A stretch of 64,000 bases of DNA from Reichenbachiella sp. 5M10 (GTDB lineage Bacteria; Bacteroidota; Bacteroidia; Cytophagales; Cyclobacteriaceae). The notes under the pieces were generated by a model. That model made no database searches and was not told where the DNA came from. It saw only the letters and a program-made list of their open reading frames with translations. A program made the position numbers and the translations under genes. Positions within the stretch are counted from its first letter, which is position 1. Every line of letters begins with the position of its first letter. The stretch covers positions 3,228,501 to 3,292,500 of the forward strand of contig NZ_MDGR01000007.1 of assembly GCF_002742335.1 (NCBI RefSeq), given 5' to 3'. Shown here in pieces: positions 29,017 to 57,445 of the stretch.

Positions 29017-29138
29017 TCTTGGTTGTTATTTCTTAAATGATATCTGGACTTCAGATTCCTTACCAATCAAAGTTGATGGATGTATTTACTTGTAATTGTC
29101 TTTCACAAAAATCTCCAAAATGGCTCCCACCTAGGAGG

Positions 29139-43295: not shown

Positions 43296-44846
43296 TTAGT
43301 ACCCGTCGTTCTGTGTGAAGTTGCCATTGGATAAATCCAATGCATCTTGCGGGATCGGCAAAAATCCTCTCGTTGCAACATCAAAGGTTACATCGAAGTT
43401 GACTTGCTCACCTTCGTACAATGGTCCGCGCTCTCCCACTTGGGTCAATTCGGACTCTGCGTAGGTCAATCCTTTTCGGAGCAGATCAAAATACCTCAAT
43501 CCCTCCAAGGCCAGCTCCAATGAACGCTCGTTGTAGATGTTGTCAGCGGTGGCAGGTATCGACGGTACGCCAGCACGCGTTCTCACTCTATCGAGATAAT
43601 CTTGTGCATTGGGACTCCCCAATTCTGCTGCCATGAGCAAGACATCAGCAAAACGAATCACTCTAAAGTTCGCCTTGCGATTTAGCTCCAACGAACCATC
43701 CGTTCCCCAGTGCTCCTTATCTGATGAGTACTTCTGAGAAAAGTAGGTCGTGTGCTGAAAGCCATGGTCTACCGTCGTATTGATTTCTGATTCGTGGAGA
43801 ATCGTAGCTTCCAACCGAACATCCGCTGGATCAAAAGCCTCCACAACCTTATACGAAACGGGGGCATAACTCCAGCCTCGGTTCCAATCACCTCCTCCTC
43901 CAGCTCTGGGTCCTTGTAGCTGTGCTGCCAGGTTGCCTTCTCCACCAGGGATGTATCCCCAGTCTCCCCATCCAGGAGAATCCCCATATCCAATCTCAAA
44001 TACGGACTCTATGCTGTACTCTGACTCCAACCTAAACAACATGGCATAATCATCCAGCAAGTCGTGCCCGCTGTTGGCGATGACGTCTTCGAGCTCTGCC
44101 AAAACGGCCGCCTTGTCCAAGGTCACACCTCCAGCGACCAAATCCTTGCCATAGACTCCATTGTAAAACAAAAATACTCGTGCCAACATGGACTTGGCAG
44201 CCCATTTGCTCAATCGTCCCGTTTCGTCTGCAGCAATCACCTCTGGCAAATCATTGGCTGCCTCGTACAAATCAAGCGCGACTTGGTTGTATACTTCTAC
44301 TGGGTCTGCTTGCGGCATGTTGTAGTCCGAACCTTTGATCGTCTCTGTCATGAACGGGATGTTCTCAAAAAATCTCAACAACTCGAAGTAAGAATAGGCA
44401 CGACAAAATTTGGCTTCTGCCGAAGTTCTCGTTTTGAATTCCTCACTGGCATCTATCCCATCGATTTTCTCCAAAAAAAGATTGGCCCTGTAGACTCCTA
44501 CATAGTTTTTCTTCCACAAAGTCCCCGTTTGTGGGTTCTCAGCAGGTACCTTGAAGGTGTTGAGCTGCTGGTAGTTGAAGCCATCGTTGGCATCACTACC
44601 TCCTGCGAAAGCATGATCTGACAAGACGTCCGATACCGTAAGTACAGGTGCCCATGTCGTCTCGTAAGCCTGTGCCTGTATCCCATCATAACAGGCCATC
44701 AGCGCTTGCATGGCATCTGACTCGGTTTGATAGAAATTTTGCGAATCTGGATTGATTAGGTCTGGTCTATCCAAGAAATCATCCGAACAGCTCCATAAAA
44801 CACATGAAGCCAACAGCGATAAAATATATTTCCTATTTGTTTTCAT
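43296..44846 (-). CDS. SusD/RagB-family glycan-binding lipoprotein (laminarin-type locus)
   Basis: 516 residues. Lipoprotein signal MKTNRKYILSLLASCVLWSC followed by SDDFLDRPDLINPDSQNFY. SusD helical repeats (AEAKFCRAYSYFELLRFFENIPF, LSKWAAKSMLARVFLFYNGVYG) and the C-terminal NERSLELALEGLRYFDLLRKG motif and FLPIPQDAL end are present. It pairs with the SusC gene 20 bp upstream. The two GH16 genes in the same operon point to beta-1,3-glucan. Confidence 0.95.
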   Translation of the reverse strand: MKTNRKYILSLLASCVLWSCSDDFLDRPDLINPDSQNFYQTESDAMQALMACYDGIQAQAYETTWAPVLTVSDVLSDHAFAGGSDANDGFNYQQLNTFKVPAENPQTGTLWKKNYVGVYRANLFLEKIDGIDASEEFKTRTSAEAKFCRAYSYFELLRFFENIPFMTETIKGSDYNMPQADPVEVYNQVALDLYEAANDLPEVIAADETGRLSKWAAKSMLARVFLFYNGVYGKDLVAGGVTLDKAAVLAELEDVIANSGHDLLDDYAMLFRLESEYSIESVFEIGYGDSPGWGDWGYIPGGEGNLAAQLQGPRAGGGGDWNRGWSYAPVSYKVVEAFDPADVRLEATILHESEINTTVDHGFQHTTYFSQKYSSDKEHWGTDGSLELNRKANFRVIRFADVLLMAAELGSPNAQDYLDRVRTRAGVPSIPATADNIYNERSLELALEGLRYFDLLRKGLTYAESELTQVGERGPLYEGEQVNFDVTFDVATRGFLPIPQDALDLSNGNFTQNDGY

Positions 44847-44866: not shown

Positions 44867-47800
44867 TTAAAATGTAATGGATGTCCCCACTCTAAAAGTC
44901 CTCGCTTGAGGATACACCCCACGATCGATCGCAATATCGAATGCACTCATCGCACCGATCTCTGGATCCGCACCGCTGTAGTTGGTGAGGGTGATCACGT
45001 TTTCGGCAGACACATAGAACCTCCAGGTGTTGGCGCCTATTCTATCCAGAATACTGCTTGGCAAAGTGTAGCCTACTTGGATGTTTTTCAGTCTCAGATA
45101 GGACCCATCTTCGATGTACAAGTCTGAAACTCTGCTGTTGTTGTTGGTATCGGTCCAGGTGAACCGCGGAGTACTTGTACTAGGGTTGTCCACAGTCCAT
45201 CTGTCCAACATGTCTGTCGGCATGTTGGTATAGCGCAAATCACGTCGCTGCTGGCCTGCAAAAATATCATTGCCCAACGTCCCTGTAAACAGGAAGGAGA
45301 AATCCACTCCTTTGTAATCCAACGAACCATTGAATCCAAAGGTCCAGTCTGGTGTAGGATTTCCGATTTTGGTGCGGTCCTTGTCGTCCAAGATTCCATC
45401 TCCATTGAGGTCTACAAAGCGAACATCCCCTGGCACAGCGTTGGGTTGGAGAGGTTCCCCTTTGGGGCCGATGTGCTGAAACACCTCCGCATTGCTCTGG
45501 AATATACCGTCAGTTTTGTAGCCATAAAAGTAAGAAATAGGCTCTCCCTCGATGGTATTGGTCACAGGCCCTGCTACTGCCCAACTCGCCCCTGGGATGT
45601 TGGCATTGCCCGTCCCGTCTATTTTGAGCATTTCATTCTTGTTGTACGTAGCATTGGCTCCTATCGAGTAGTTCAGCTCTCCAGCCGCATTTCTAAAATC
45701 CAAAGACATCTCTATCCCTTTGTTCTCCACAGACCCTACATTTTGGTAGGGAGGAGCAATACCCGCATGTGGCTGAGTCGGAGGATTGTACAGCAGTTTA
45801 TTGGTCGTCTTGTTGTAGACATCAACTGTCCCCGTCAGACGGTTTTCGAAGAGCCCAAAATCAATCGCCAAATCCAGTTGAATGGATTCCTCCCACTGAA
45901 TGTCTGCATTCGCAGCATAGGCTGGAGATGCGCCCACTCCATAGCCACCATCTAAAGTATAGCCTCGTGTGTAGTTCATCGGCGAAGCATATCTAAATCT
46001 AGGAATGGATTCATTGCCATTGATCCCCCACGAAGCACGGAATTTCAGCAAATTGATTGGCCCTATGTTTTGCATAAATGCCTCATCGCTCAGTACCCAC
46101 GCCACGCCTAAAGATGGGAAGTAGCCGTACTTGTTGTTGTCACCAAACTTGCTCGATCCGTCTCGTCTCAAAATAGCTGTCACAGAATAGCGGTCTTTGA
46201 AATCATAGGTGATTCTACCAAAATACGAATACAGGGCGTCTTCGGTAGCACCTCCCCAAGCATTGGCCACTGTGTCCTGTGCCTGATCGATGTACACGTG
46301 ATCGTAGTCTGTCAACGGCACTTTGTCTTTGGAGCCTCCTACATTTTCCCAAGTCCGCTCTTGTGCAGAGGTCCCAAACAGCACCGAGAAGTTGTGCTCA
46401 TTGATCTTCTTGGAATAGGTAATGGTGTTGTCCCACTGCCAGTTGAACCATCTTTGAGCCTCTTTGCTGACACTGGTTCTTTCGAGATTGCCCTGTGATC
46501 CGTTGAGGTAAAACAGAGGTGTAAAATTACTGTTGATCCCTATCGCCAAATCAATCGAGTAAGCCGTTTTGATGGTCAAGCCCTTGACAGGGATAAACTC
46601 GGCATAAATACCTCCAACCAGTTTGTCTTCATTCCATTCGCCGTGCTGATTGTCTATCAAGGCAATCGGATTGACAATCTCTGATCCTACGTTGGTAGAG
46701 ATCCCATAAGGGAAACCATTGTCTGCATAGAGTACGGGTTCGCTAGCATAGGGACTCTGAGACAAAATATCTGGGTCTTGCTCTGTCAAAGGAGTCAAAG
46801 GATCCAAGTTGAGTGCGGAACTGTATGCTCCACCAAACGAGGTATTGCTCGAGATCCCTCTAGTGGTCTTGTGCGTATAGGCGAGGTTGTTGCCAAAATT
46901 AAACCAAGACGTCACATGCTGTCTAGAATTGAACCTAGCCGTGTATCGGTCGAACTGTGATTTTTCTCCTCCGATGATTCCCTGCTGCGAGAAGGCGGAC
47001 AAGGAAGATGCAAAAGACGACTTTTCAGACCCACCTGTCACTTGTATCTCATGATTACTCATAGGGGCATTTTTCGTGAATAACTCCTCTTGCCAATCGG
47101 TATCATGTGCTGGGAGTTGAGCGAGATCAAAGGGCTCATCCAACCCGCCGTTTCGAGCCCCTTCGTTTTGCATCATGCGGTACTGCTCTGCATTGAGCAT
47201 GTCGATGGTCTTGGCGGCATTTTGCATGCCATAGTAGCCCGAGTAGGTGACGTTCATTCTTCCCTCTTCTCCTGATTTGGTCGTGATCAGTACGACTCCA
47301 TTGGCTGCTCTTGCTCCATAGATCGCTGCAGAAGCCGCATCTTTCAATACATCCATGCTTTCGATATCACCCGGGTTGAGGTAGTCGATCCCCCCGACCA
47401 CCATGCCGTCTACGACATAGATCGGACTGGCATCTCCCGTGGTACCTGCTCCCCTGATTCGTACTGTGGGAGCTTCACCCGGCTGTCCTGACAGGTTGGT
47501 CACCTGGACCCCTGCCGTTCGTCCTTGCAGCGCTTGCTCCACGCGCAAAATTGGTGTCGATGTGATTTGCTTGGCCGACACACTGGCTATGGCTCCAGTC
47601 ACCACTTTTTTACTTTGTGTCCCATAGCCTATCACGACTACCTCTGTGAGTTCGGTCAAAGAAATCTGAAGCTCTGCATCGATGATCGAGCGCCCGCCGA
47701 TAGGTAGCTCCAGCGGCTCATAGCCCACAAAGGAAACGACCACCTTCTCAGCTTCCCCCGAAATACTCAAAGTGTAGCGTCCATCTATATCTGTGACTGT

Positions 47801-47971
47801 ACCGTTGGCCGTCCCTTCGACGATAACCGTCGCGCCAGGGATGGTCTCCCCGTTGGATGCGTCACGGACGACACCCGAAATGCTCCTTCCTTGCGCGAAT
47901 ACTTGAGACGCCATCAAGGTCATCAGCATGACTGCTAAAAAATTCTGTATACGTTTATTCATGTCTTTCAT
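44867..47971 (-). CDS. SusC/RagA-family TonB-dependent glycan transporter (laminarin-type locus)
   Basis: About 1034 residues. The ATG at 47971 (MKDMNKRIQNF) is preferred to an in-frame TTG at 47986. Signal peptide ending VFAQ; carboxypeptidase-regulatory-like domain (ISGVVRDASNGETIPGATV); plug with GQPGEAPTVRIRGAGTTGDASPIYVVDGM and DAASAAIYGARAANGVV; barrel ending VGTSITF. It lies 22 bp after the GH16 stop and 20 bp before SusD, so enzymes and transporter are co-transcribed, a gene order (enzymes first) different from the other two loci. Confidence 0.95.
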   Translation of the reverse strand: MKDMNKRIQNFLAVMLMTLMASQVFAQGRSISGVVRDASNGETIPGATVIVEGTANGTVTDIDGRYTLSISGEAEKVVVSFVGYEPLELPIGGRSIIDAELQISLTELTEVVVIGYGTQSKKVVTGAIASVSAKQITSTPILRVEQALQGRTAGVQVTNLSGQPGEAPTVRIRGAGTTGDASPIYVVDGMVVGGIDYLNPGDIESMDVLKDAASAAIYGARAANGVVLITTKSGEEGRMNVTYSGYYGMQNAAKTIDMLNAEQYRMMQNEGARNGGLDEPFDLAQLPAHDTDWQEELFTKNAPMSNHEIQVTGGSEKSSFASSLSAFSQQGIIGGEKSQFDRYTARFNSRQHVTSWFNFGNNLAYTHKTTRGISSNTSFGGAYSSALNLDPLTPLTEQDPDILSQSPYASEPVLYADNGFPYGISTNVGSEIVNPIALIDNQHGEWNEDKLVGGIYAEFIPVKGLTIKTAYSIDLAIGINSNFTPLFYLNGSQGNLERTSVSKEAQRWFNWQWDNTITYSKKINEHNFSVLFGTSAQERTWENVGGSKDKVPLTDYDHVYIDQAQDTVANAWGGATEDALYSYFGRITYDFKDRYSVTAILRRDGSSKFGDNNKYGYFPSLGVAWVLSDEAFMQNIGPINLLKFRASWGINGNESIPRFRYASPMNYTRGYTLDGGYGVGASPAYAANADIQWEESIQLDLAIDFGLFENRLTGTVDVYNKTTNKLLYNPPTQPHAGIAPPYQNVGSVENKGIEMSLDFRNAAGELNYSIGANATYNKNEMLKIDGTGNANIPGASWAVAGPVTNTIEGEPISYFYGYKTDGIFQSNAEVFQHIGPKGEPLQPNAVPGDVRFVDLNGDGILDDKDRTKIGNPTPDWTFGFNGSLDYKGVDFSFLFTGTLGNDIFAGQQRRDLRYTNMPTDMLDRWTVDNPSTSTPRFTWTDTNNNSRVSDLYIEDGSYLRLKNIQVGYTLPSSILDRIGANTWRFYVSAENVITLTNYSGADPEIGAMSAFDIAIDRGVYPQARTFRVGTSITF

Positions 47972-47993
47972 ATTTGGTTTTGGCAATCAATTC

Positions 47994-48809
47994 TCATTGA
48001 TATACTCTTACATAATCCACTTCCATTGTGACCGGAAGTGCTGCGGGCTCTATGCCCATCAAGCCTCCCCAGTTGCCCCCATAGGCGATGTTCATGATCA
48101 GTCGAAAATACTGGTCATAGGGCCATTGAGCCGATGAAGAGCCTTCGTTTTGATAAGTAAAAAATAACCGCTCATCTACATAGACTCTGTATTCCTCTTC
48201 GTCCCATTCCAAGATGTAGTTGTGAAAAGTAGTATCACAATCTGGTACAGCTATCGCCCTATGCTTTTGTGTACCTTGCGCACCATTGTACATAGCGGTA
48301 TGCGTAGCTGACACAATACTGTCTGGGTCATATCCGACATTCTCCATGATGTCGATCTCACCACTATGTGGCCATCCCCCGTACGTCCATTCGGTCGGGA
48401 GCATCCATAGTGCAGACCAGGTCCCTAGAGCTGAAGGTAGTTTTGCTCTCAACACAAAGCGACCGTATCTCCACCCTCTGTTGCCTGTAGACAACAGTCT
48501 CGCTGAAGTAAATAGGCTATCGCTCACACTATCCTGACGCAATACAATCTTCAATTTGCCCTCTTCCACGTAGGCGTTGGATGGGTCATCGGTGTATTGC
48601 TGCAATTCATTGTTGCCCCAGCCACACGAGCTTGGACAACCATTTCCCAAATCATAGGTCCATTTGGTCGTATCAGGCACCCCCGTGTAATCAAACTCAT
48701 CCGACCACACCAACATGCTGTACTTCTTACCCTTGCTCTCACTAGATGATACACAAGCACCCAAACTGACGAGTCCTACGATCAAAAAGCAATTCAGTCT
48801 ACTCCTCAT
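47994..48809 (-). CDS. GH16 laminarinase-like lipoprotein, short form
   Basis: About 271 residues. The ATG at 48809 (MRSRLNCFLIVG) follows the upstream GH16 stop by 1 bp; a GTG at 48818 would overlap that gene. Lipoprotein signal ends LGAC then VSSSESK. The whole mature protein is a GH16 jelly-roll: LVWSDEFDYTG, WGNNELQQYT, the catalytic GEIDIMENVG (E-x-D-x-x-E), and a C-terminal VDYVRVYQ. These fit subfamily 3 laminarinases that cut beta-1,3-glucan. The tight coupling with the larger GH16 suggests the two act together at the cell surface. Confidence 0.93.
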   Translation of the reverse strand: MRSRLNCFLIVGLVSLGACVSSSESKGKKYSMLVWSDEFDYTGVPDTTKWTYDLGNGCPSSCGWGNNELQQYTDDPSNAYVEEGKLKIVLRQDSVSDSLFTSARLLSTGNRGWRYGRFVLRAKLPSALGTWSALWMLPTEWTYGGWPHSGEIDIMENVGYDPDSIVSATHTAMYNGAQGTQKHRAIAVPDCDTTFHNYILEWDEEEYRVYVDERLFFTYQNEGSSSAQWPYDQYFRLIMNIAYGGNWGGLMGIEPAALPVTMEVDYVRVYQ

Positions 48810-48810
48810 T

Positions 48811-49923
48811 TTACTCACTCTTTTGAAACATCCTGATGTAGTCCACCTTCATCGTCTGTGGAAACACCGTCGATGCATTTGGACTTCCAGGCCAGTTGCC
48901 TCCTACGGCGATATTCATGATGAAGAAATAATCATGGTGAAACTCACTCAGCTCATCTGACGTGGTATCAATTACATTGAACTGCTTGTCGTCGACATAC
49001 CAAGTGATTTTACTCTCATCCCATACGATCGAAAACACATGGTATTCGTCCGCAAAAACCCCAGATGACAGTTTGGTTCCTTTGCCATAGCTGGCATAGT
49101 TGCCTCCATGCTCCCAGTGGACAGTCCCGTGGACTTCATCATCTCTGTCCGTGCCACCGACCAACTCCATGATGTCGATCTCCCCACAAGCCGGCCAAGT
49201 GACAGTCTGATAATTGGCGCCTAGCATCCATAGTGCCGGCCACAGACCCTGTCCTTTGGGCAACAAAGCTCTAATGTCTACTCTCCCGTAAGTGAACTCT
49301 TGCTTCTTGGCAGTCACCAATCTCGACGAAGTATACTCTCGTCCCTGAAAAGATTCCTTCTTGGCTGTGATGGTCAATACCCCTTCGCCAACCGTCGTGT
49401 TTTCTTGACGATAATACTGAAGCTCGTTGTTGCCCCAGCCGTTGCTGCCAGTCCCTGTCTCATAGCTCCAATCCGAACTATTGAGACTAGTCCCGTTGAA
49501 CTCATCGTGCCACACCAGATCCATCCCTTCGTACGATGTAGGAGTCGAATACCCATCTTCCAGGTCGATAGGACCTCCTTCTTCTCCAATTTGAATGTTG
49601 ACTTCTTGTGTTTTGCTGATATAGCGCCCTGACTCCCCATAGGCTCTCACCTCAATCTCGTAGATGCCAAACGCCGTATAGGTATACGTCAATTTGCCAT
49701 CCAAGCTAAATTCGTAGGAGTCTGGATCTTCGCCCATATAATACTGATACTGGGTCACATTGTCGCCCGTAGCGAGGACATCGACTCGCCCAGATAGGTC
49801 ATCGGCGATGGTCACTTCAACGTCTAGATTGGAAGGATTGGTCAAATCTGTTTGCCCCTCCTCTTCTTCACAAGAAAACAGAAATAGGAAGGCCATCAAT
49901 AGAGGTATGTAGAATCTCATCAT
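48811..49923 (-). CDS. GH16 laminarinase-like lipoprotein with N-terminal beta domain
   Basis: 370 residues. Lipoprotein signal MMRFYIPLLMAFLFLFSC then EEEEGQ. An N-terminal PKD/Ig-like domain (about 30-115, LTYTYTAFGIYEIEVRAYG) is followed by an acidic-Gly linker and the GH16 domain (about 130-370: DLVWHDEFNGTSLN, WGNNELQYYRQEN, catalytic GEIDIMELVGG, WYVDDKQFNV, VDYIRMFQ). It should cut laminarin or mixed-linkage glucan at the surface. It lies 66 bp after the PKD lipoprotein and is followed at once by the second GH16. Confidence 0.93.
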   Translation of the reverse strand: MMRFYIPLLMAFLFLFSCEEEEGQTDLTNPSNLDVEVTIADDLSGRVDVLATGDNVTQYQYYMGEDPDSYEFSLDGKLTYTYTAFGIYEIEVRAYGESGRYISKTQEVNIQIGEEGGPIDLEDGYSTPTSYEGMDLVWHDEFNGTSLNSSDWSYETGTGSNGWGNNELQYYRQENTTVGEGVLTITAKKESFQGREYTSSRLVTAKKQEFTYGRVDIRALLPKGQGLWPALWMLGANYQTVTWPACGEIDIMELVGGTDRDDEVHGTVHWEHGGNYASYGKGTKLSSGVFADEYHVFSIVWDESKITWYVDDKQFNVIDTTSDELSEFHHDYFFIMNIAVGGNWPGSPNASTVFPQTMKVDYIRMFQKSE

Positions 49924-49989: not shown

Positions 49990-51423
49990 TTATTCTAGAA
50001 TGATATCATCAAAGTAGTGTACACGTGCACCCTCTTTGTTCACCGTTTGGAAATCAAAAAACAATGCCATGACATCCCACTTTTCTGTGTCTTCTGCTGC
50101 GAAAGTAAAGCTCAGCTCTTCCCACTCATTGGCGACTGTAGTTGTCACATCGATCTCCTTGTTGTCCGCAGCGTTTGCGCTACTTTCCAATTTGAACTTC
50201 ACGATGGTACCCGCCGCTGGAGAGTAGACTTTCATTTTGAAGGTTTGCTTGGTACTGAAATCTACCTTTCCTCCTAGGTTGGTCGAAATCCCTGACCAAC
50301 CTTCTGCACCATCAGTTTCGTCTACTTGACCTACTTTGGCCGAAGTATTGATACCGCCTGATACTGGGTTGTCAACGATACTCGGTGAGGCACTTCCAAA
50401 TCCACCAAAGCTAAATGCATCAGACTCTAGGTCAATGTTCACTGCATCAATCACAGTCTCTACCTCTTCGACTTCTTCTTTCACTCCCATTGCAGGCTCA
50501 TCTGCTGCGTTGGCATAACTCACGTAAATCGCTCTCCAATATTCGGCCTCATATTGAAACCCTATCGTCAAGGTATCCACCCCTGAATCTCCTCCATCAG
50601 CCAAAACAGCCGAAAATGAAGTACTAGAAGGAGGTGTAGTTCCTTTGGGATTGTAAGTAGTAGACCCCAACTTGTACAAGCCCATCCATGCACCTGCACC
50701 TGTAAGTGTAATCGTGCCTTCCGATGAGCTATACTCATAACTATGGGTATCAGAAGATAACCATGCACTGTAGTCTACCCCATCGACAGTCAGATTAGCT
50801 GCGGACTCCTCGACACAGTTCTCGTTCAAGTCTGCCTTGTCAGACTCTGCATAATAATCAGCTTCACCCCAGAAAGTGCCAGCGGCTTGGTATTCGAAGG
50901 TTCCATCTCTGTGGTAGGTAAACTCGTCATCAAACAAACAATTTCTTGATCCGTCATTGCTCAAAGTCCACCATGAGTACCAAGTAGCTTCTGCCGGGCC
51001 TATCCCCAGTGCGGCTCCTTCTCTTAACAGCTTCCACGTCTTTGATGTAACTCCTGACAACAGTGTCAATTGCTCGTCTGGATCCGTCACGGTCACGTCT
51101 GAAGAAAACTCGGCTTCAACACCCGCATCGTTGGCAGCTGTCAAAGTCACCGTATATGTACCACCTGCGAGATACGTGTAGACTGGATTCTCCTCGGTAG
51201 AGGTGCCCACCTCATCACCGAAATCCCAAGTATAGCTCGTGGCATTTTGAGAGAAATTGCTAAAAGTCGCTTCAAAGAAATCCGCTTCGTCTATCTCTAC
51301 TTGAAAGCTGGCTATCGGGTCTTTTGCTTCGGGTTCGCCCCCATCATCGGTAGAACATCCCATCATAACAATGCCCATGATCATCATTGACATGAGTCCG
51401 TAAATTAGTCTTGTTTTTTTCAT
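49990..51423 (-). CDS. PKD-domain surface lipoprotein with C-terminal CBM-like module
   Basis: 477 residues. Lipoprotein signal (MKKTRLIYGLMSMMIMGIVMMGC then STDDGGE), PKD domain about 38-112 (SYTWDFGDEVGTSTEENP, YTYLAGGTYTVTLTAAND), then a domain with SKTWKLL and RNCLFDDEFTYHRDG shared with the region A lipoprotein at 5139-6137, an acidic Glu/Val hinge near 315-325, and a C-terminal beta-sandwich (about 330-477, SVD/PVSGGINTSAKVGQ...RVHYFDDIILE) of the CBM4-like type seen in laminarin-binding proteins. First gene of the leftward operon; a glucan-binding role on the surface is inferred. Confidence 0.8.
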   Translation of the reverse strand: MKKTRLIYGLMSMMIMGIVMMGCSTDDGGEPEAKDPIASFQVEIDEADFFEATFSNFSQNATSYTWDFGDEVGTSTEENPVYTYLAGGTYTVTLTAANDAGVEAEFSSDVTVTDPDEQLTLLSGVTSKTWKLLREGAALGIGPAEATWYSWWTLSNDGSRNCLFDDEFTYHRDGTFEYQAAGTFWGEADYYAESDKADLNENCVEESAANLTVDGVDYSAWLSSDTHSYEYSSSEGTITLTGAGAWMGLYKLGSTTYNPKGTTPPSSTSFSAVLADGGDSGVDTLTIGFQYEAEYWRAIYVSYANAADEPAMGVKEEVEEVETVIDAVNIDLESDAFSFGGFGSASPSIVDNPVSGGINTSAKVGQVDETDGAEGWSGISTNLGGKVDFSTKQTFKMKVYSPAAGTIVKFKLESSANAADNKEIDVTTTVANEWEELSFTFAAEDTEKWDVMALFFDFQTVNKEGARVHYFDDIILE

Positions 51424-51550
51424 GCTTAGAAAATTTAGTTTTAGTAATTGCTCTTGTCAGAGAAGTCGAAAGTCTTTCGGTTTTCGCTTCATCCATGGTT
51501 ACAATTATGAGAAACTAAATCGCATCGCGTCAAAATACAGCCTGCACAAT

Positions 51551-51581
51551 AATACATCAATGCCAAAAATAGAATACATCA
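51551..51581. promoter_or_regulatory. Candidate operator: two AATACATCA copies spaced 22 bp
   Basis: AATACATCA at 51551-51559 and again at 51573-51581, both followed by A. Start-to-start distance is 22 bp, about two helical turns, as expected for sites bound by a dimer or tandem protomers on one face of DNA. They lie between the divergent PKD lipoprotein and regulator genes. The reverse complement TGATGTATT occurs twice before the GH3 gene. Confidence 0.6.
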
Positions 51582-51668
51582 AAAACTCATCAACAGGTGC
51601 TAATAATAGCTTTTAAAGCAAATAATACACATATTTATCATGAAAGATTAATTTACATTTTCCCGACA

Positions 51669-54596
51669 ATGAACAAAGTGACTACATCACAGCTGTGCTC
51701 CTTCCTGTTATTCCTATCCATTTTCAGCCATTCGGCTATTGCCCATGATTACAAGGGGGTTCCTTTCATCACTACCTATTCTCCCAAAGAATACGAAGCG
51801 GGCATGCAAAACAACGACCTCCTCCAAGACCAAAGAGGTCTCATCTATATCGCCAACAACTACGGGCTGCTCGAATACGACGGCAGTCGCTGGCGTATCT
51901 ACTCCGTCAGCAACGGTACCAAGGTAAGATCCGTCTCCTTGCATGCCAACGGCAGCATATATGTAGGCGCTCAAAATCAGTTTGGCTATTTTTTTCCCAA
52001 TCCAGAAGGCAGGATGACCTACCACTCTCTCTCCGACTTACTCCCCAGTCCTCAGCAGCAAGTCGGAGAGGTTTGGAAATGCTACGTCATCGAAGAAAAC
52101 ATCTACTTCTGCACCGACACCCACATCTACAAATACGACGGAGAGACAGTCACTATTGAAGCACAAGACATTGAAATCGGGTCGTCTTTTGTCGCCAACA
52201 ATCAGCTTTATATTTATCAAGAAAACAAAGGATTGACCTTCATCGAGAAAGGCCATCAAATCATGGTCTATGGCAGTGAAGTATTCTCAGACCAGCGCAT
52301 CGCAGGCTTGATCCCCTTGGCCAACGACAGGCTATTGGTATGTACCGAAGAGCATGGACTCTACTATTACAACGGCAGCAAATTCGAAACATGGAAAGTA
52401 GACGCCAACCACGTATTGCGCTCCGTCTTTATCCAAACAGTACTCCCCCTGTCCAACCATATGCTGGCTATAGGCACGCGTAGCAACGGCATTTTCCTTA
52501 TCAGCAATGAAGGTGAAATTCTTTCGAAGCTGGACAAAGAAAGGGGATTCAACAACAAAACCATCTTTGGTCTGATGGAGGACGAGTTTGGCAACCTATG
52601 GGTCGGACAAAACAACGGACTGGCCAAAATCGAACTCTCCTCTCCTTTCACATACATCAACCAACAATTCGATCTCGAAGGCGCAGGATACTGCAGCTAC
52701 TCCAACCAAGATGGGCTCTATCTAGGGACCAACAACGGGCTCTACTTGATCAACAACAAAAAGACCCCTCCCTATACCCTCAACGACTACCACACAAGCA
52801 AGCCCATGAATGGACAAATCTATTCGATCCGAGGATTTGAAAACAAAATTCTACTTGGTCATGAAGATGGCGCTACTTTCTTGGACCAAGGAGTGGCCGA
52901 CCGGTTTTCGACGACCGAAGGTGCTTGGAAGTTCATCGTCCCTCAAAACAACCCCTCGCTACTCCTAGAGGGCAATTACTTGGGCATGAAAGTCTACCAC
53001 AAGCAAAACGAACAATGGAAAAGCGAAGGCTTACTCGATGGACTCAGGGAGTCCTCCCGCGTATTTATCGAAGACGTGGATGGATCGATATGGATGACGC
53101 ATGGCTACAAGGGGGTATTCAAAATCTACCCCGCAGCAGACTACAGCAAAATCGACTCAGTCCGGTTCTATGATGACAGAAATGGTTTTGCCACCAATCG
53201 ACTCATCAATATCTTTAGCATCAACAACGAAAACATCTTCTGCTCGGGCCAAGGGATCTACCGCTACGACAAAGAGCACGACTCCTTTGTCTTACACGAC
53301 AAATTCACCGCGCTGTTTGGACCCAAAATCCACATTCGTGAAATGCAAGAAGATGCCAACGGCAACATCTACTTCATCGCGTCGAATTTTTCGGGTGTCC
53401 TGATCAAAGACAAATTCAACAACTACAGCATGGACACCAAAGTATTCAACAAAATCCACAGCAAATTGAACGACGACTTGGAAGACATCTCAGTATTGGA
53501 TTTTGGCAATGTACTATTCGGTGCTCACGAAGGCTTCATTCATTTTGACCCACAAAAAAAATCGATCCTATTAAACCCCATCAAAGTATTGATTCGCCGT
53601 GTTTTTTCGACCAATGATGACCGAATCCTCTTCGATGGGAGTTTCCAAAAAGATGGCAAAATAGTAACCAATCAGCCGACCCATTCGGATCCCGAGTTTA
53701 GCTACGACACAAACTCCGTCCTCTTCCAGTTCAGCTCTACTTTCATAGACGAGGACATGAAAACAGAATACAGCTACCGCCTCGAGGGATTCGAGAAAGA
53801 CTGGTCACTATGGACAACCAATACCGAAAAAGAATACACCAATCTACGAGAAGGGGCTTACGAATTCATCGTCAAAGCCAAAAACATCTATGACGTAGAA
53901 AGCGAAGTGGCTCGTTTTCGATTCAGCATCAACCCTCCATGGTACCGCACCAAGTTGGCCTATGTGCTATTCTTCATCCTCTTCGCGGGAAGCATCAGTG
54001 CCATCATCATTTCCCAAAACCTGGTCCACAAAAAAGAAAAAAAGGTCATGAAAATGACTCAGAAAAGAGAACTCATACGCAAAGACAACGAAATGGTCGA
54101 ACTATCCGAAAAATCAAAAACGGAGATCATGAAGCTCAAAAATGAAAACTTAGAACTAGAGATCAATACCAAAAACAAAGAGCTGGCCAGTTCTACCATG
54201 AACTTGATTGACAAAAACCAACTGCTATCAGGACTCAAAAACGACATCAAACAAATCCTAGACCAAGACAAGAAAAATAGCAACACCCGAGCCCTCAAAG
54301 AAATGCTAAAAAAGATCGACCGCAGCATATCACATGATGATGAATGGGAGCATTTCCAACAGTACTTTGATCAAGTACACGGAGATTTCACCACGCGGCT
54401 CAGGCAGGAGTACGCCAACCTATCTCCGCAAGAGGTCAAGCTATCCAACTATCTCCGAATGAGTCTCTCTACCAAGGAGATTGCACAATTGATGAATATC
54501 ACGACCAGAGGAGTAGAAATCGCCCGGTACAGGCTGAGAAAAAAATTGAACCTAGACAGAGAAGTCAACCTATCGGAGTTCATAGGGAGGTTTTAG
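51669..54596 (+). CDS. Membrane-spanning propeller/Y_Y_Y regulator with LuxR-type HTH
   Basis: About 975 residues. The ATG at 51669 gives a signal peptide (MNKVTTSQLCSFLLFLSIFS...IAH); upstream frames lack sense. A periplasmic beta-propeller (LLQDQRGLIYIANNYGLLEYDG, NLWVGQNNGLAKIE repeats) leads to a Y_Y_Y domain (about 682-757, FEKDWSLWTTNTEKEYTNLREGAYEF), a membrane helix (about 762-786), a Lys/Glu-rich coiled coil (about 791-860), and a C-terminal LuxR-type helix-turn-helix (about 918-965, LSPQEVKLSNYLRMSLSTKEIAQLMNIT). No kinase, ATPase or receiver domain is present, so it is a one-component membrane regulator unlike the two HTCS proteins in this window. It probably senses a laminari-oligosaccharide and controls the divergent operon and GH3. 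Confidence 0.9.
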   Translation: MNKVTTSQLCSFLLFLSIFSHSAIAHDYKGVPFITTYSPKEYEAGMQNNDLLQDQRGLIYIANNYGLLEYDGSRWRIYSVSNGTKVRSVSLHANGSIYVGAQNQFGYFFPNPEGRMTYHSLSDLLPSPQQQVGEVWKCYVIEENIYFCTDTHIYKYDGETVTIEAQDIEIGSSFVANNQLYIYQENKGLTFIEKGHQIMVYGSEVFSDQRIAGLIPLANDRLLVCTEEHGLYYYNGSKFETWKVDANHVLRSVFIQTVLPLSNHMLAIGTRSNGIFLISNEGEILSKLDKERGFNNKTIFGLMEDEFGNLWVGQNNGLAKIELSSPFTYINQQFDLEGAGYCSYSNQDGLYLGTNNGLYLINNKKTPPYTLNDYHTSKPMNGQIYSIRGFENKILLGHEDGATFLDQGVADRFSTTEGAWKFIVPQNNPSLLLEGNYLGMKVYHKQNEQWKSEGLLDGLRESSRVFIEDVDGSIWMTHGYKGVFKIYPAADYSKIDSVRFYDDRNGFATNRLINIFSINNENIFCSGQGIYRYDKEHDSFVLHDKFTALFGPKIHIREMQEDANGNIYFIASNFSGVLIKDKFNNYSMDTKVFNKIHSKLNDDLEDISVLDFGNVLFGAHEGFIHFDPQKKSILLNPIKVLIRRVFSTNDDRILFDGSFQKDGKIVTNQPTHSDPEFSYDTNSVLFQFSSTFIDEDMKTEYSYRLEGFEKDWSLWTTNTEKEYTNLREGAYEFIVKAKNIYDVESEVARFRFSINPPWYRTKLAYVLFFILFAGSISAIIISQNLVHKKEKKVMKMTQKRELIRKDNEMVELSEKSKTEIMKLKNENLELEINTKNKELASSTMNLIDKNQLLSGLKNDIKQILDQDKKNSNTRALKEMLKKIDRSISHDDEWEHFQQYFDQVHGDFTTRLRQEYANLSPQEVKLSNYLRMSLSTKEIAQLMNITTRGVEIARYRLRKKLNLDREVNLSEFIGRF

Positions 54597-54858
54597 AGAG
54601 TTGCGGCAGTACCCAACTTCGTGTAGTAGAACTACCCCTAGACCCACCAAAGCGCTGCAGCCCCTACAACTAACCACTCGACAGACTGCAAAGACCTCTC
54701 AATAGACCGCATAACGAACACTACGGACTGCAGAACCTTTGGGCAGTAGAGCCTGCATCCTCCTAGAAAGAATGGACGGTTTATAGCTGACGGGAGCTCG
54801 TGCCACGACGATCATCCACGCCTCTTGATGTAGGCCCTGACGCTCTCCTACGAATTAA
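54597..54858. other. Intergenic stretch after the regulator
   Basis: About 260 bp with no gene I can support. A 47-codon minus-strand open stretch (from about 54850 to a stop at 54699) has no plausible start or known motif. A short inverted repeat GTAGG/CCTAC lies near 54830-54850. No U-rich terminator hairpin was found for the regulator. Confidence 0.3.
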
Positions 54859-54867
54859 TGATGTATT
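54859..54867. promoter_or_regulatory. Candidate operator copy upstream of GH3 (distal)
   Basis: TGATGTATT, exact reverse complement of the AATACATCA repeats before the regulator gene. It lies 232 bp upstream of the GH3 start codon. Confidence 0.5.
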
Positions 54868-54889
54868 TAGAATTTCTTCTTCCTGACAA

Positions 54890-54948
54890 TCAAAAACACC
54901 CTTCAAACCGATTATTCAAACCTTTTAGCGCACCTGTAGTGTTTTTGA
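54890..54948. repeat. Inverted repeat between the two operator copies
   Basis: Perfect 10-bp arms TCAAAAACAC (54890-54899) and GTGTTTTTGA (54939-54948), 39-bp spacer, framed by TGATGTATT at 54859 and 54969. It could form a leader stem or a second protein site. Confidence 0.4.
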
Positions 54949-54968
54949 AGTAGCACAGAGCGGGCCCA

Positions 54969-54977
54969 TGATGTATT
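54969..54977. promoter_or_regulatory. Candidate operator copy upstream of GH3 (proximal)
   Basis: Second TGATGTATT, 110 bp from the first and 114 bp from the GH3 start codon. Confidence 0.5.
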
Positions 54978-55090
54978 AATGTAGGGTAGATTAATTTCGA
55001 TTTCAGTCTGTAGCAACTGATAATTGTACAAGACACTGGTGCACAGAACAAGATTTGAGTACGCCAGTCATTATTACGAAAGACTTGATT

Positions 55091-57445
55091 ATGAACCCTA
55101 GCAAACAGACTCATCCTTGCATGGCGCTGAGAGAAGCCCCATCTACAAAAACACCGACTCACTACCTTACAAAACGGCTCATCCAAGCCTTTCTGAGCCT
55201 CACACTAGGCCTCTTCTTGTGCGCCTGTGGATCCAGACCCGTAGAGAGCAACGAAGAAGAAATTTTCGTCTCAGACCTCTTGGATCAAATGACTTTGGAA
55301 GAAAAAATAGGACAACTGCACCAAATCACCAGTCAATGGAACATGACTGGTCCCGCTCCCGAATATGCACAAGGGCACGAAGAAAGACTCAAATCTGGAT
55401 TCGTGGGCTCCATGCTCAATGTAATCGGTGCAGAAGCAACACTCAATGCACAAAAACTTGTCGTTGAAAACAGCCGATTGGGTATTCCATTGATATTCGG
55501 CTATGACGTCATCCATGGCTACCGCACGATGTTTCCCGTCCCACTTGGTGAAGCAGCCTCATGGGATCCTGAGGTCGTGAAACTGTCCGCATCGATTGCC
55601 GCTTTGGAATCTGCAGCAGCGGGTCTTCACTGGACCTTTGCCCCGATGATGGATGTAGGCAGAGACGCCCGGTGGGGACGTGTGATGGAGGGAGCCGGCG
55701 AGGACCCCTACCTTGCCAGTATCCTCTCAGCAGCCAGAGTACGCGGGTTTCAAGGCGAAAATCTCGCCGATGAGAAAACGATTGCGGCCTGCGCCAAACA
55801 CTTTGCGGGCTATGCTTTTGCCGAATCAGGCAAAGACTACAACAACGTGGACATCAGCAATGCTACACTACACAACGTCATTCTGCCTCCATTCAAGGCA
55901 AGTACCGCAGCAGGCGCAGCGACCTACATGAACTCCTTCAATACCATCCAAGGCCTCCCCGCCTCGGCCAACGCGTACATCCAACGACAATTGCTCAAAG
56001 GAGACTGGGGGTTTGACGGGTTTGTCGTCTCGGACTGGAACAGCATCGGCGAAATGGTCGCACACGGAGCAGCGCCTGACCTCAAAGAGGCCGCCAACAT
56101 GGCCATACACGCGGGATCAGACATGGACATGGAAGGCAATGCCTACACCAACTTCCTCGCCGAACTGGTAGAAGAAGGCAAAGTAGACACCAAAATCATC
56201 GACGATGCAGTCAGACGGGTATTGACCGTCAAATACCGTCTGGGACTCTTCGAAGACCCCTACAAGTACTCCAACACAGAATGGGAGAAAAACACCCTCT
56301 ACAGCCTGGGCAACAAATCTGCCGCACGCAAAGTCGCCAGAGAATCCATCGTCTTACTCAAAAATGAGGGAAAACAACTCCCGATCGGCGAATCAATCAA
56401 ATCCATCGCAGTGATCGGACCACTGGCCGATGACAAAGATGCTCCTCTAGGCAACTGGAGAGCTGATGCGATCGCCAACTCGGCGGTATCTGTACTCGAA
56501 GGCATCAAAGCCCGAGCTGGCAAAGACGTCACCATCAACTACGCCAAAGGCTGTGACCTTGTCATCAGCGAGAGAACCTTTGCAGGGGAAATTCAATTCA
56601 ATACCACCGATCGATCGGGATTTGCAGCGGCAGTAGCTGCGGCCAAAAAATCCGAAATCGTGCTGCTAGCCATTGGTGAAGATTGTTTCCAATCGGGAGA
56701 AGGCAGAAGCCAAGCGGACATCGGACTCAAAGGCCTGCAAATGGAACTGTTCGACGCGATCTATGCTGTGAATCCCAACATTGTCATAGTGCTGATGAAC
56801 GGACGACCAGTCGCTATCCCTGAGTTAGACGCCAAAGCTCCCGCAATTCTAGAGACTTGGTTCTTGGGCTCAGAGGCGGGGCATGCCATCGCCGATGTAG
56901 TATTCGGAGCGCACAACCCTTCGGGCAAACTCCCGATGACTTTCCCTAGGAGCAACGGACAGATCCCTATCTACTACAACTACATGAACACGGGTAGACC
57001 CGGCCCTAAGAACGAGGTATTCTGGTCACACTACACCGACCAAAGCAATGATCCGTTGTACCCCTTTGGATACGGACTGAGCTACACAGATTTTGCGTAC
57101 GACAACCTGACTGTAGACAGCAGCGACCCGCGCGCGATTCAAGTCTCCGTCACACTGACCAATACTGGTTTGGTAACTGGCACAGAAGTCGCCCAACTCT
57201 ACATTCGAGATCAATTTGCTAGTCTTGTGAGACCTATCAAAGAACTCAAAGGTTTTCAAAAAGTGACTTTAGAATCAGGTGAATCCAAAGACTTGACTTT
57301 CACTCTAACAGAAAAAGAATTGGGTTTCTATGACAATGAAGGCAACTACCAAGTGGAGGACGGCATGTTTGACGTGATGGTCGGTACCAATTCTACGGAC
57401 TTACTCACAGAGACGTTCCTATTGACAGCAGAAGCTGTTCAGTAA
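55091..57445 (+). CDS. GH3 beta-glucosidase lipoprotein (BglX-like)
   Basis: About 784 residues from the ATG at 55091 (an in-frame ATG at 55121 is also possible; a TTG at 55055 is less likely). A long polar N-terminus leads into a lipoprotein-type signal (LIQAFLSLTLGLFLCAC then GSRPVESNE). GH3 N-terminal barrel about 50-385: MTLEEKIGQLHQIT, FGYDVIHGYRTMFPVPL, GRDARWGRVMEGAGEDPYL, KHFAGYAFAESGKDYNNVD, and Asp315 as nucleophile in GFVVSDWNS; the alpha/beta sandwich follows with SGEGRSQADI, and a fibronectin III-like domain ends the chain. It should split laminari- or cello-oligosaccharides to glucose. It follows the regulator on the same strand with its own 494-bp leader containing two candidate operator sites. 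Confidence 0.95.
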   Translation: MNPSKQTHPCMALREAPSTKTPTHYLTKRLIQAFLSLTLGLFLCACGSRPVESNEEEIFVSDLLDQMTLEEKIGQLHQITSQWNMTGPAPEYAQGHEERLKSGFVGSMLNVIGAEATLNAQKLVVENSRLGIPLIFGYDVIHGYRTMFPVPLGEAASWDPEVVKLSASIAALESAAAGLHWTFAPMMDVGRDARWGRVMEGAGEDPYLASILSAARVRGFQGENLADEKTIAACAKHFAGYAFAESGKDYNNVDISNATLHNVILPPFKASTAAGAATYMNSFNTIQGLPASANAYIQRQLLKGDWGFDGFVVSDWNSIGEMVAHGAAPDLKEAANMAIHAGSDMDMEGNAYTNFLAELVEEGKVDTKIIDDAVRRVLTVKYRLGLFEDPYKYSNTEWEKNTLYSLGNKSAARKVARESIVLLKNEGKQLPIGESIKSIAVIGPLADDKDAPLGNWRADAIANSAVSVLEGIKARAGKDVTINYAKGCDLVISERTFAGEIQFNTTDRSGFAAAVAAAKKSEIVLLAIGEDCFQSGEGRSQADIGLKGLQMELFDAIYAVNPNIVIVLMNGRPVAIPELDAKAPAILETWFLGSEAGHAIADVVFGAHNPSGKLPMTFPRSNGQIPIYYNYMNTGRPGPKNEVFWSHYTDQSNDPLYPFGYGLSYTDFAYDNLTVDSSDPRAIQVSVTLTNTGLVTGTEVAQLYIRDQFASLVRPIKELKGFQKVTLESGESKDLTFTLTEKELGFYDNEGNYQVEDGMFDVMVGTNSTDLLTETFLLTAEAVQ

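Follow-up and report, generated by a model that had tools for sequence, protein, structure and literature searches.

In Bacteroides, SusR-like regulators carry their ligand site in the periplasm and a helix-turn-helix (HTH) at the C-terminus and activate Sus-type operons in response to glucans, and their predicted motifs are same-face direct repeats with 67 or 77 bp between centres (PMC3878776). Direct repeats are likewise predicted for the motifs of hybrid two-component systems (HTCS) (PMC3878776), which carry a propeller/Y_Y_Y sensor related to that of the regulator considered here. Laminarin polysaccharide utilization loci (PULs) of marine Bacteroidota contain glycoside hydrolase (GH) genes of family GH149 or GH3 together with PKD genes, and many have a first gene annotated as LuxR, from which co-regulation was deduced, the passage on these loci giving no operator (PMC13188888); three Reichenbachiella isolates degrade laminarin (PMC10752948). 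In a 64,000-nucleotide stretch of the genome of Reichenbachiella sp. 5M10 (contig NZ_MDGR01000007.1; hereafter the window), arrays of direct repeats precede both a divergent operon encoding PKD, GH16 and SusCD proteins and a GH3 gene, on the two sides of a gene encoding a membrane-bound regulator. From the arrays and their conservation, periodicity, polarity, promoter register, co-occurrence and target genes, all computed here, we infer that they are very probably activator sites of the adjacent SusR-like regulator of the Reg_prop/Y_Y_Y/LuxR type, and that they delimit a laminarin regulon. No description of this array, nor of an operator for Y_Y_Y-type regulators beyond the Bacteroides SusR and HTCS predictions, was found in the literature searches made here.

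The regulator has a Reg_prop propeller and a Y_Y_Y domain, taken as periplasmic, one segment of strong hydrophobicity near residues 761-787 and a C-terminal GerE-like HTH (Pfam domains), the GerE match (E=1.8e-4, 21.5 bits) lying under the Pfam cut-off of 23.5. Its sensor is related by sequence to the HTCS sensors in PDB entries 4a2l and 3v9f; however, a domain search of the regulator detected no histidine kinase (HisKA/HATPase), receiver or AraC domain, all of which belong to HTCS. The layout of outer sensor, membrane segment and C-terminal HTH without a kinase is thus that of SusR-like regulators, with a topology predicted from hydropathy and domains; the term SusR-like refers here to this layout and to direct-repeat operators before SusCD/GH genes, and not to a sequence comparison with SusR (BT3705). 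Residues 761-967 weakly match the NCBIfam family BT3442_fam (26.5 bits, cut-off 940). With the LuxR/GerE (NarL/FixJ) family the regulator would share the C-terminal GerE-like HTH, differing in being membrane-bound with an outer sensor. MalT is a LuxR-type maltodextrin activator with direct-repeat sites.

The array spans 55 bp and consists of five units of 11 bp, two half-sites on either side of an unconserved spacer unit; the half-site is TGATGTA(T/G)T, and its copies follow one another in the same orientation with an 11-bp period. Within 350 bp either side of the regulator gene in 11 loci, exact TGATGTA occurred 42 times, as against a mean of 1.5 and a maximum of 5 in 300 shuffles. When one mismatch was permitted and one member of each pair was exact, 38 of the 57 same-strand distances of up to 60 bp were 11 (11 times), 22 (10 times), 33 (12 times) or 44 bp (five times), any other value occurring at most three times, and no opposite-strand distance over the same range reached four counts, which rules out the inverted-repeat architecture of classical LuxR/NarL sites. 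NarL/LuxR sites are usually palindromes, in contrast to the head-to-tail 11-bp lattice seen here. A motif-free count of 8-mers found TACATCAA and CTACATCA in nine of nine loci, the maximum for any 8-mer in 60 shuffles being seven, and MAFFT inserted no gap in the 11 arrays, nor in a set of 32, both sets having been cut in register beforehand. The 11-locus set, nine members of which entered the 8-mer count, omits the orthologues of genomes G009 (array not found) and G028 (array of 28.3 bits), and three of its loci (the window, L001 and L074) come from closely related species; here and below, G-numbers denote genomes and L-numbers loci. In the window's divergent array, units 1 (TTGATGAGTTT) and 5 (TTGTGCAGGCT) are degenerate, yet are kept in close species. 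Because the direct repeats recur at one helical turn, regulator subunits would line up in a head-to-tail row along a single DNA face.

The first-pass annotation had drawn attention to the 9-mer AATACATCA, the opposite strand of which reads TGATGTATT, a half-site of the array. It reported four copies, and exactly four occur, at 51551(+), 51573(+), 54859(-) and 54969(-); its statement that intergenic DNA held no other exact copy extends to the whole 64-kb window. Chance expectation from shuffles was 0.73, and none of 100 shuffles reached four. Forms with at most one mismatch numbered 32 (18.3 expected), including the one listed at 29078; the form listed at about 262 is AATACATGT, with two mismatches and not one. 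Over the whole genome AATACATCA has 148 copies (62 forward, 86 reverse; 18 for a backwards-read control), and 15 of 20 copies drawn from 100 of these lay inside open reading frames (ORFs) of at least 600 nt, so that the 9-mer alone is unspecific and was rejected as the functional unit. These counts are what a chance recurrence of a common 9-mer would predict, but the 11-bp lattice, together with the cross-genus conservation, genome-wide rank and Fisher test given below, makes that explanation scarcely credible, and for the divergent array it is already refuted. The non-random part is the placement of the 9-mer within a larger conserved array that the annotation missed, its copies at 51573 and 51551 being units 2 and 4 of the divergent array. 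The genome-wide count that it proposed as a check accordingly had a divided outcome: the 9-mer is common, but the array is rare and that of the window ranks first in its own genome.

Orthologues of the regulator are 85% identical in Reichenbachiella agariperforans and 84, 61 and 37-43% identical in other relatives. Lack of conservation in orthologous loci had been named beforehand as grounds for giving up the proposal; the array was found upstream of nine of ten diverged orthologues (37-61% identical), which is strong conservation. Searches used three models, namely R1 (including the Reichenbachiella arrays; six training genomes), R2 (seven arrays from other genera, without Reichenbachiella) and R3 (32 non-Reichenbachiella arrays, many of them picked with R1). 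Of 46 R1 matches, 34 lay 76-211 bp upstream of a regulator start, 28 of them in non-training genomes, and in all 34 TGATGTA points away from the regulator. On the far side of the array, PKD proteins (window and L001) and SusC (L072) are annotated in some loci, and SusC-size ORFs lie across the array in six more.

In its own genome the divergent array ranked first with both R2 (E=2.5e-4) and R3 (E=3.9e-8), followed by an unlinked site (E=0.0045 and 5.2e-4, respectively), and with R2 the GH3 promoter came third (E=0.083). The unlinked site holds the sole exact TGATGTANNNNTGATGTA in the genome and lies upstream of a 1377-residue protein with SKN1_KRE6 (GH16-like), PKD and CBM6 domains and a type IX secretion system (T9SS) tail. 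A further match in this genome, C7:3060239, lies inside an ORF and was set aside. Among 390 related genomes, 39 had an R1 match (E<=1e-3); a regulator scoring at least 630 bits, found in 72 of the 390, occurs in 38 of the 39. With the six training genomes removed, the regulator occurs in 32 of 33 array-positive genomes and in 34 of 351 others (Fisher p=4e-27, a value made too small by the relatedness of the genomes). Of the 20 genomes whose regulator homologues are all weaker, none was array-positive. Array-positive counts, here and in the class-wide draw below, are lower bounds, since the genome search scored a limited number of candidates and applied stricter filters above 40 genomes. In four congeners that lack a close orthologue (G002, G003 and G006 have no match at E<=1e-60, and that of G005 is 30% identical), the best R3 matches had E-values of 0.32 (G002), 0.17 (G003), 0.001 (G006) and 0.60 (G005). 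In a class-wide draw of 395 genomes (R3, E<=1e-4) seven were positive, including the genome studied here; six belong to the family of the window and one (G495) to another; the G495 site lies before a SusC gene, and a Reg_prop/Y_Y_Y protein is encoded in that locus.

Regarding arrays away from the regulator gene, 9 of 12 non-adjacent R1 matches precede glucan genes (Table 1), and two weaker matches (L146 and L149) also precede GH16; match L142 was judged to be chance. Arrays thus stand before beta-1,3-glucan enzymes, unlinked loci included, as expected of a laminarin regulon, and because the targets comprise GH16, GH3, GH149 and CBM4_9 proteins, the ligand is probably a beta-1,3-glucan. The large CBM4_9/T9SS proteins at L066 6991-11313, L067 4909-9798 and L136 3779-7114 have long parts without Pfam assignment, and a sequence search with that of L066 retrieved no relative in the PDB; these proteins are candidates for new beta-glucan-active domains.

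Promoters of the Bacteroidetes sigma-ABfr type have a -33 TTTG and a -7 TAnnTTTG (PMC7366714). Downstream of 35 arrays, TTTG peaked at +7 (10 of 35; no more than three in 99% of 500 shuffles) and a relaxed form of TAnnTTTG at +30 (8 of 35; at most four in 99% of shuffles), and T occupied +35 in all 35, the shuffles preserving base composition only. The 35 were kept from 45 array rows after removal of four whose score with an ungapped matrix was under 25 (L130, L135, L146 and L149) and six near-duplicates or repeats; alignment A4 holds 32 of them, both Reichenbachiella arrays and one near-duplicate having been removed. This group signal at a fixed distance fits a putative -33/-7 sigma-ABfr promoter. 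The individual -7-like elements of the window, CATAATTG before the divergent operon (four of six consensus bases) and GATAATTG before GH3, are both imperfect and both at +30, and TTTG was not found at +7 in the GH3 promoter. Of the 35 arrays, 17 have a distal half-site 85-98 bp ahead of unit 1, and over the 260-bp distal region 20 half-sites were on the same strand and one on the opposite strand. Before GH3, the half-sites at 54859 and 54969 are 110 bp apart, a distance identical in L001 and L074. An RNA element was ruled out: the array is upstream of the predicted -33 and should therefore escape transcription from that promoter.

The same geometry bears on the sense of regulation. In favour of the arrays being repressor sites, or sites of autoregulation of the regulator gene, the distal half-site falls at the start of that gene in the window (51683), and in L068, L078 and L065 it precedes the gene by 18-46 bp. 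However, every one of the regulator-adjacent arrays points away from the regulator, the array lies just upstream of the -33 at a fixed distance and not over the promoter, and 9 of the 12 non-adjacent arrays point at catabolic genes; we therefore regard repression or autoregulation as improbable, and autoregulation as the main role was rejected on the grounds of array polarity. The first-pass annotation had joined the SusCD-GH16 operon, the regulator itself and GH3 into one regulon through predicted binding of the regulator; this regulon is supported for the operon and GH3, control of the regulator gene itself being improbable. Activation is the favoured reading: the arrays have a polarity, keep a constant distance to the promoter and sit ahead of the -33.

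A different question is which protein would bind. The arrays could be genuine PUL operators recognized by another factor, for example a second Y_Y_Y regulator, the adjacent regulator co-occurring as a cluster member. The own genome has 22 Y_Y_Y matches (21 over the cut-off, one within a GH16 protein) and a homologue, L063, with a near-identical recognition helix; paralogues with related arrays occur in G004, G007 and G014, and in G006 an array-like site occurs although the orthologue is absent. Against this stand the near-complete coincidence of array and orthologue, in 38 of 39 array-positive genomes, the lack of arrays in genomes with weaker homologues only, and the location of 11 of the 12 non-adjacent arrays in orthologue-bearing genomes. 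Moreover, the arrays by the paralogues L063, L071 and L073 look different by eye, although that by L070 is TGATGTA-like. Another binding factor is therefore unlikely, if somewhat less so than repression, and the adjacent regulator remains the preferred candidate.

The paralogous regulators (L063, L071, L073 and L070) are 26-29% identical overall and have near-identical HTHs, the recognition helix reading RGVETARYRLRK as compared with RGVEI(A/S)RYRLRK. The direct repeats by L063, L071 and L073 comprise TGAAGTA followed by TAAAGTA or AATAAGTA. The difference between TGAAGTA and TGATGTA among paralogues is perhaps a one-base specificity switch.

The GH3 array of the window reads TGTAGTG, TGAAGTA, a 12-bp spacer, TGATGTA and TGTAGGG. 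An array recurs before GH3 in four relatives (G001, G004, G007 and G301), and for this reason GH3 is counted as a regulon member.

Several observations weigh against the arrays being sites of the adjacent regulator throughout this regulon. The GH3 array of the window is weak when taken alone (E=0.093 with R1, 0.083 with R2), is absent from the R3 results at E<=1 genome-wide and scores 9.5 bits with R3 in the window alone, in part because its pairs are 34 bp and not 33 bp apart. R3 depends partly on R1, which contained the Reichenbachiella arrays. The G009 orthologue, a diverged one, has no detected array upstream, and 34 of the 72 strong-orthologue genomes lack an R1 match at E<=1e-3; four of these were examined (G286, G321, G316 and G252), and all four have a recognizable array 150-175 bp upstream of the regulator. 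Conversely, G006 lacks the orthologue and has its R3 match (L145 6314-6355) before sulfatase and GH35 genes. Among the 12 non-adjacent matches, three are exceptions: that in G411 neighbours a second Reg_prop/Y_Y_Y regulator and points away from the SusC gene there, that in G336 looks like chance in a genome with no regulator at E<=1e-150, and that in G328 is at a contig end. The weaker matches L147 and L148 lie within coding sequence and were judged to be chance. Finally, the near-identical HTHs of related regulators mean that these arrays might be bound by a paralogue.

The features of the locus and the targets of non-adjacent arrays are given in Table 1. For GH3 the start at ATG 55094 is likelier than the TTG at 55055 of the ORF list, because the ATG is conserved in L001 and L074. 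The intergenic region between regulator and GH3 is about 500 bp in the window and about 290-300 bp in L003/L004, and positions 54597-54930, next to the regulator stop, form an extra stretch that looks lineage-specific.

Table 1. Features of the Reichenbachiella sp. 5M10 locus (window coordinates) and targets of non-adjacent arrays in other genomes.
Feature	Position	Strand	Remarks
55-bp operator array facing PKD/GH16/SusCD operon	51539..51593	-	predicted; alignment and model matches
Units of divergent array	51593-51583, 51582-51572, spacer 51571-51561, 51560-51550, 51549-51539	-	
Putative promoter of divergent operon	51502..51534	-	TTTG 51534-51531 (-33-like); CATAATTG 51509-51502 (-7-like)
Distal half-site TGATGTA	51683..51689	-	97 bp upstream of unit 1, within first regulator codons
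Regulator, 975 aa	51669..54596	+	Reg_prop, Y_Y_Y, hydrophobic segment, C-terminal GerE/LuxR-type HTH
GH3-promoter array	54934..54989	+	CTGTAGTGTTT TTGAAGTAGCA, 12-bp spacer, ATGATGTATTA ATGTAGGGTAG; includes 54969 copy
Distal half-site TGATGTA before GH3	54859..54865	+	110 bp upstream of 54969 half-site
Further TGATGTA	54826..54832	+	33 bp upstream of 54859; significance uncertain
Putative -7-like element of GH3, GATAATTG	55019..55026	+	+30 from array end, as in divergent promoter
PKD-domain protein	49990..51423	-	first gene of divergent operon
GH16 protein	48811..49923	-	
GH16 protein	47994..48818	-	
SusC-like TonB-dependent receptor	44867..47986	-	
SusD-like protein	43296..44846	-	
GH3 protein	55094..57445	+	downstream of regulator gene
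GH3 target of non-adjacent array	G301		
CBM4_9/T9SS protein targets of non-adjacent arrays	G234, G027, G008		
GH16 operon targets of non-adjacent arrays	G370, G349		
SusCD targets of non-adjacent arrays	G340, G377		
GH149 1,3-beta-D-glucan phosphorylase behind unlinked array	G027, L064 5995-9450		1580 bits

In the proposed mechanism, the regulator would sense a glucan oligosaccharide through its propeller/Y_Y_Y domain, as its domains suggest, and its cytoplasmic LuxR-type HTHs would occupy successive TGATGTA(T/G)T half-sites head to tail at 11-bp intervals, placing the subunits on one helix face in two pairs 33-34 bp apart, with a further half-site about 8-9 helical turns upstream in about half of the promoters. 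Since the array ends about 6 bp before the putative -33 TTTG and 29 bp before the -7 element, the bound regulator may touch RNA polymerase and activate transcription in the manner of a class II-type activator. The predicted targets in the own genome would be the PKD-GH16-GH16-SusC-SusD operon, GH3 and the unlinked GH16-like/PKD/CBM6 protein with a T9SS tail.

The comparison with SusR-like regulators of Bacteroides, made by spacing and orientation and not by motif letters, points to a common direct-repeat, same-face logic (PMC3878776). In both cases direct repeats at helical-turn spacing precede SusCD/GH genes, but in place of the published 67 or 77 bp there is an 11-bp repeat in a 55-bp array, some promoters having an additional half-site 76-98 bp ahead of unit 1, and the substrate here is probably beta-1,3-glucan. 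Tentatively, and with the balance tilting slightly against it, the membrane-tethered LuxR-type regulator could be imagined as a helical ruler: its HTHs, bound head to tail at 11-bp steps, would make up two pairs separated by three turns, hold a further half-site 8-9 turns upstream and dock at a single set distance from the sigma-ABfr promoter. In that case the SusR motifs would be a reduced form of this arrangement, and a half-site code (TGATGTA versus TGAAGTA in some paralogues) would direct many PUL regulators each to its own targets.

Much marine carbon is stored as laminarin, and there are many regulators with Y_Y_Y sensors. A defined array that is polar and keeps a set distance to the promoter would make laminarin regulons, unlinked genes included, predictable from sequence alone, and would open to testing the general question of how glycan regulators in the membrane reach their promoters.

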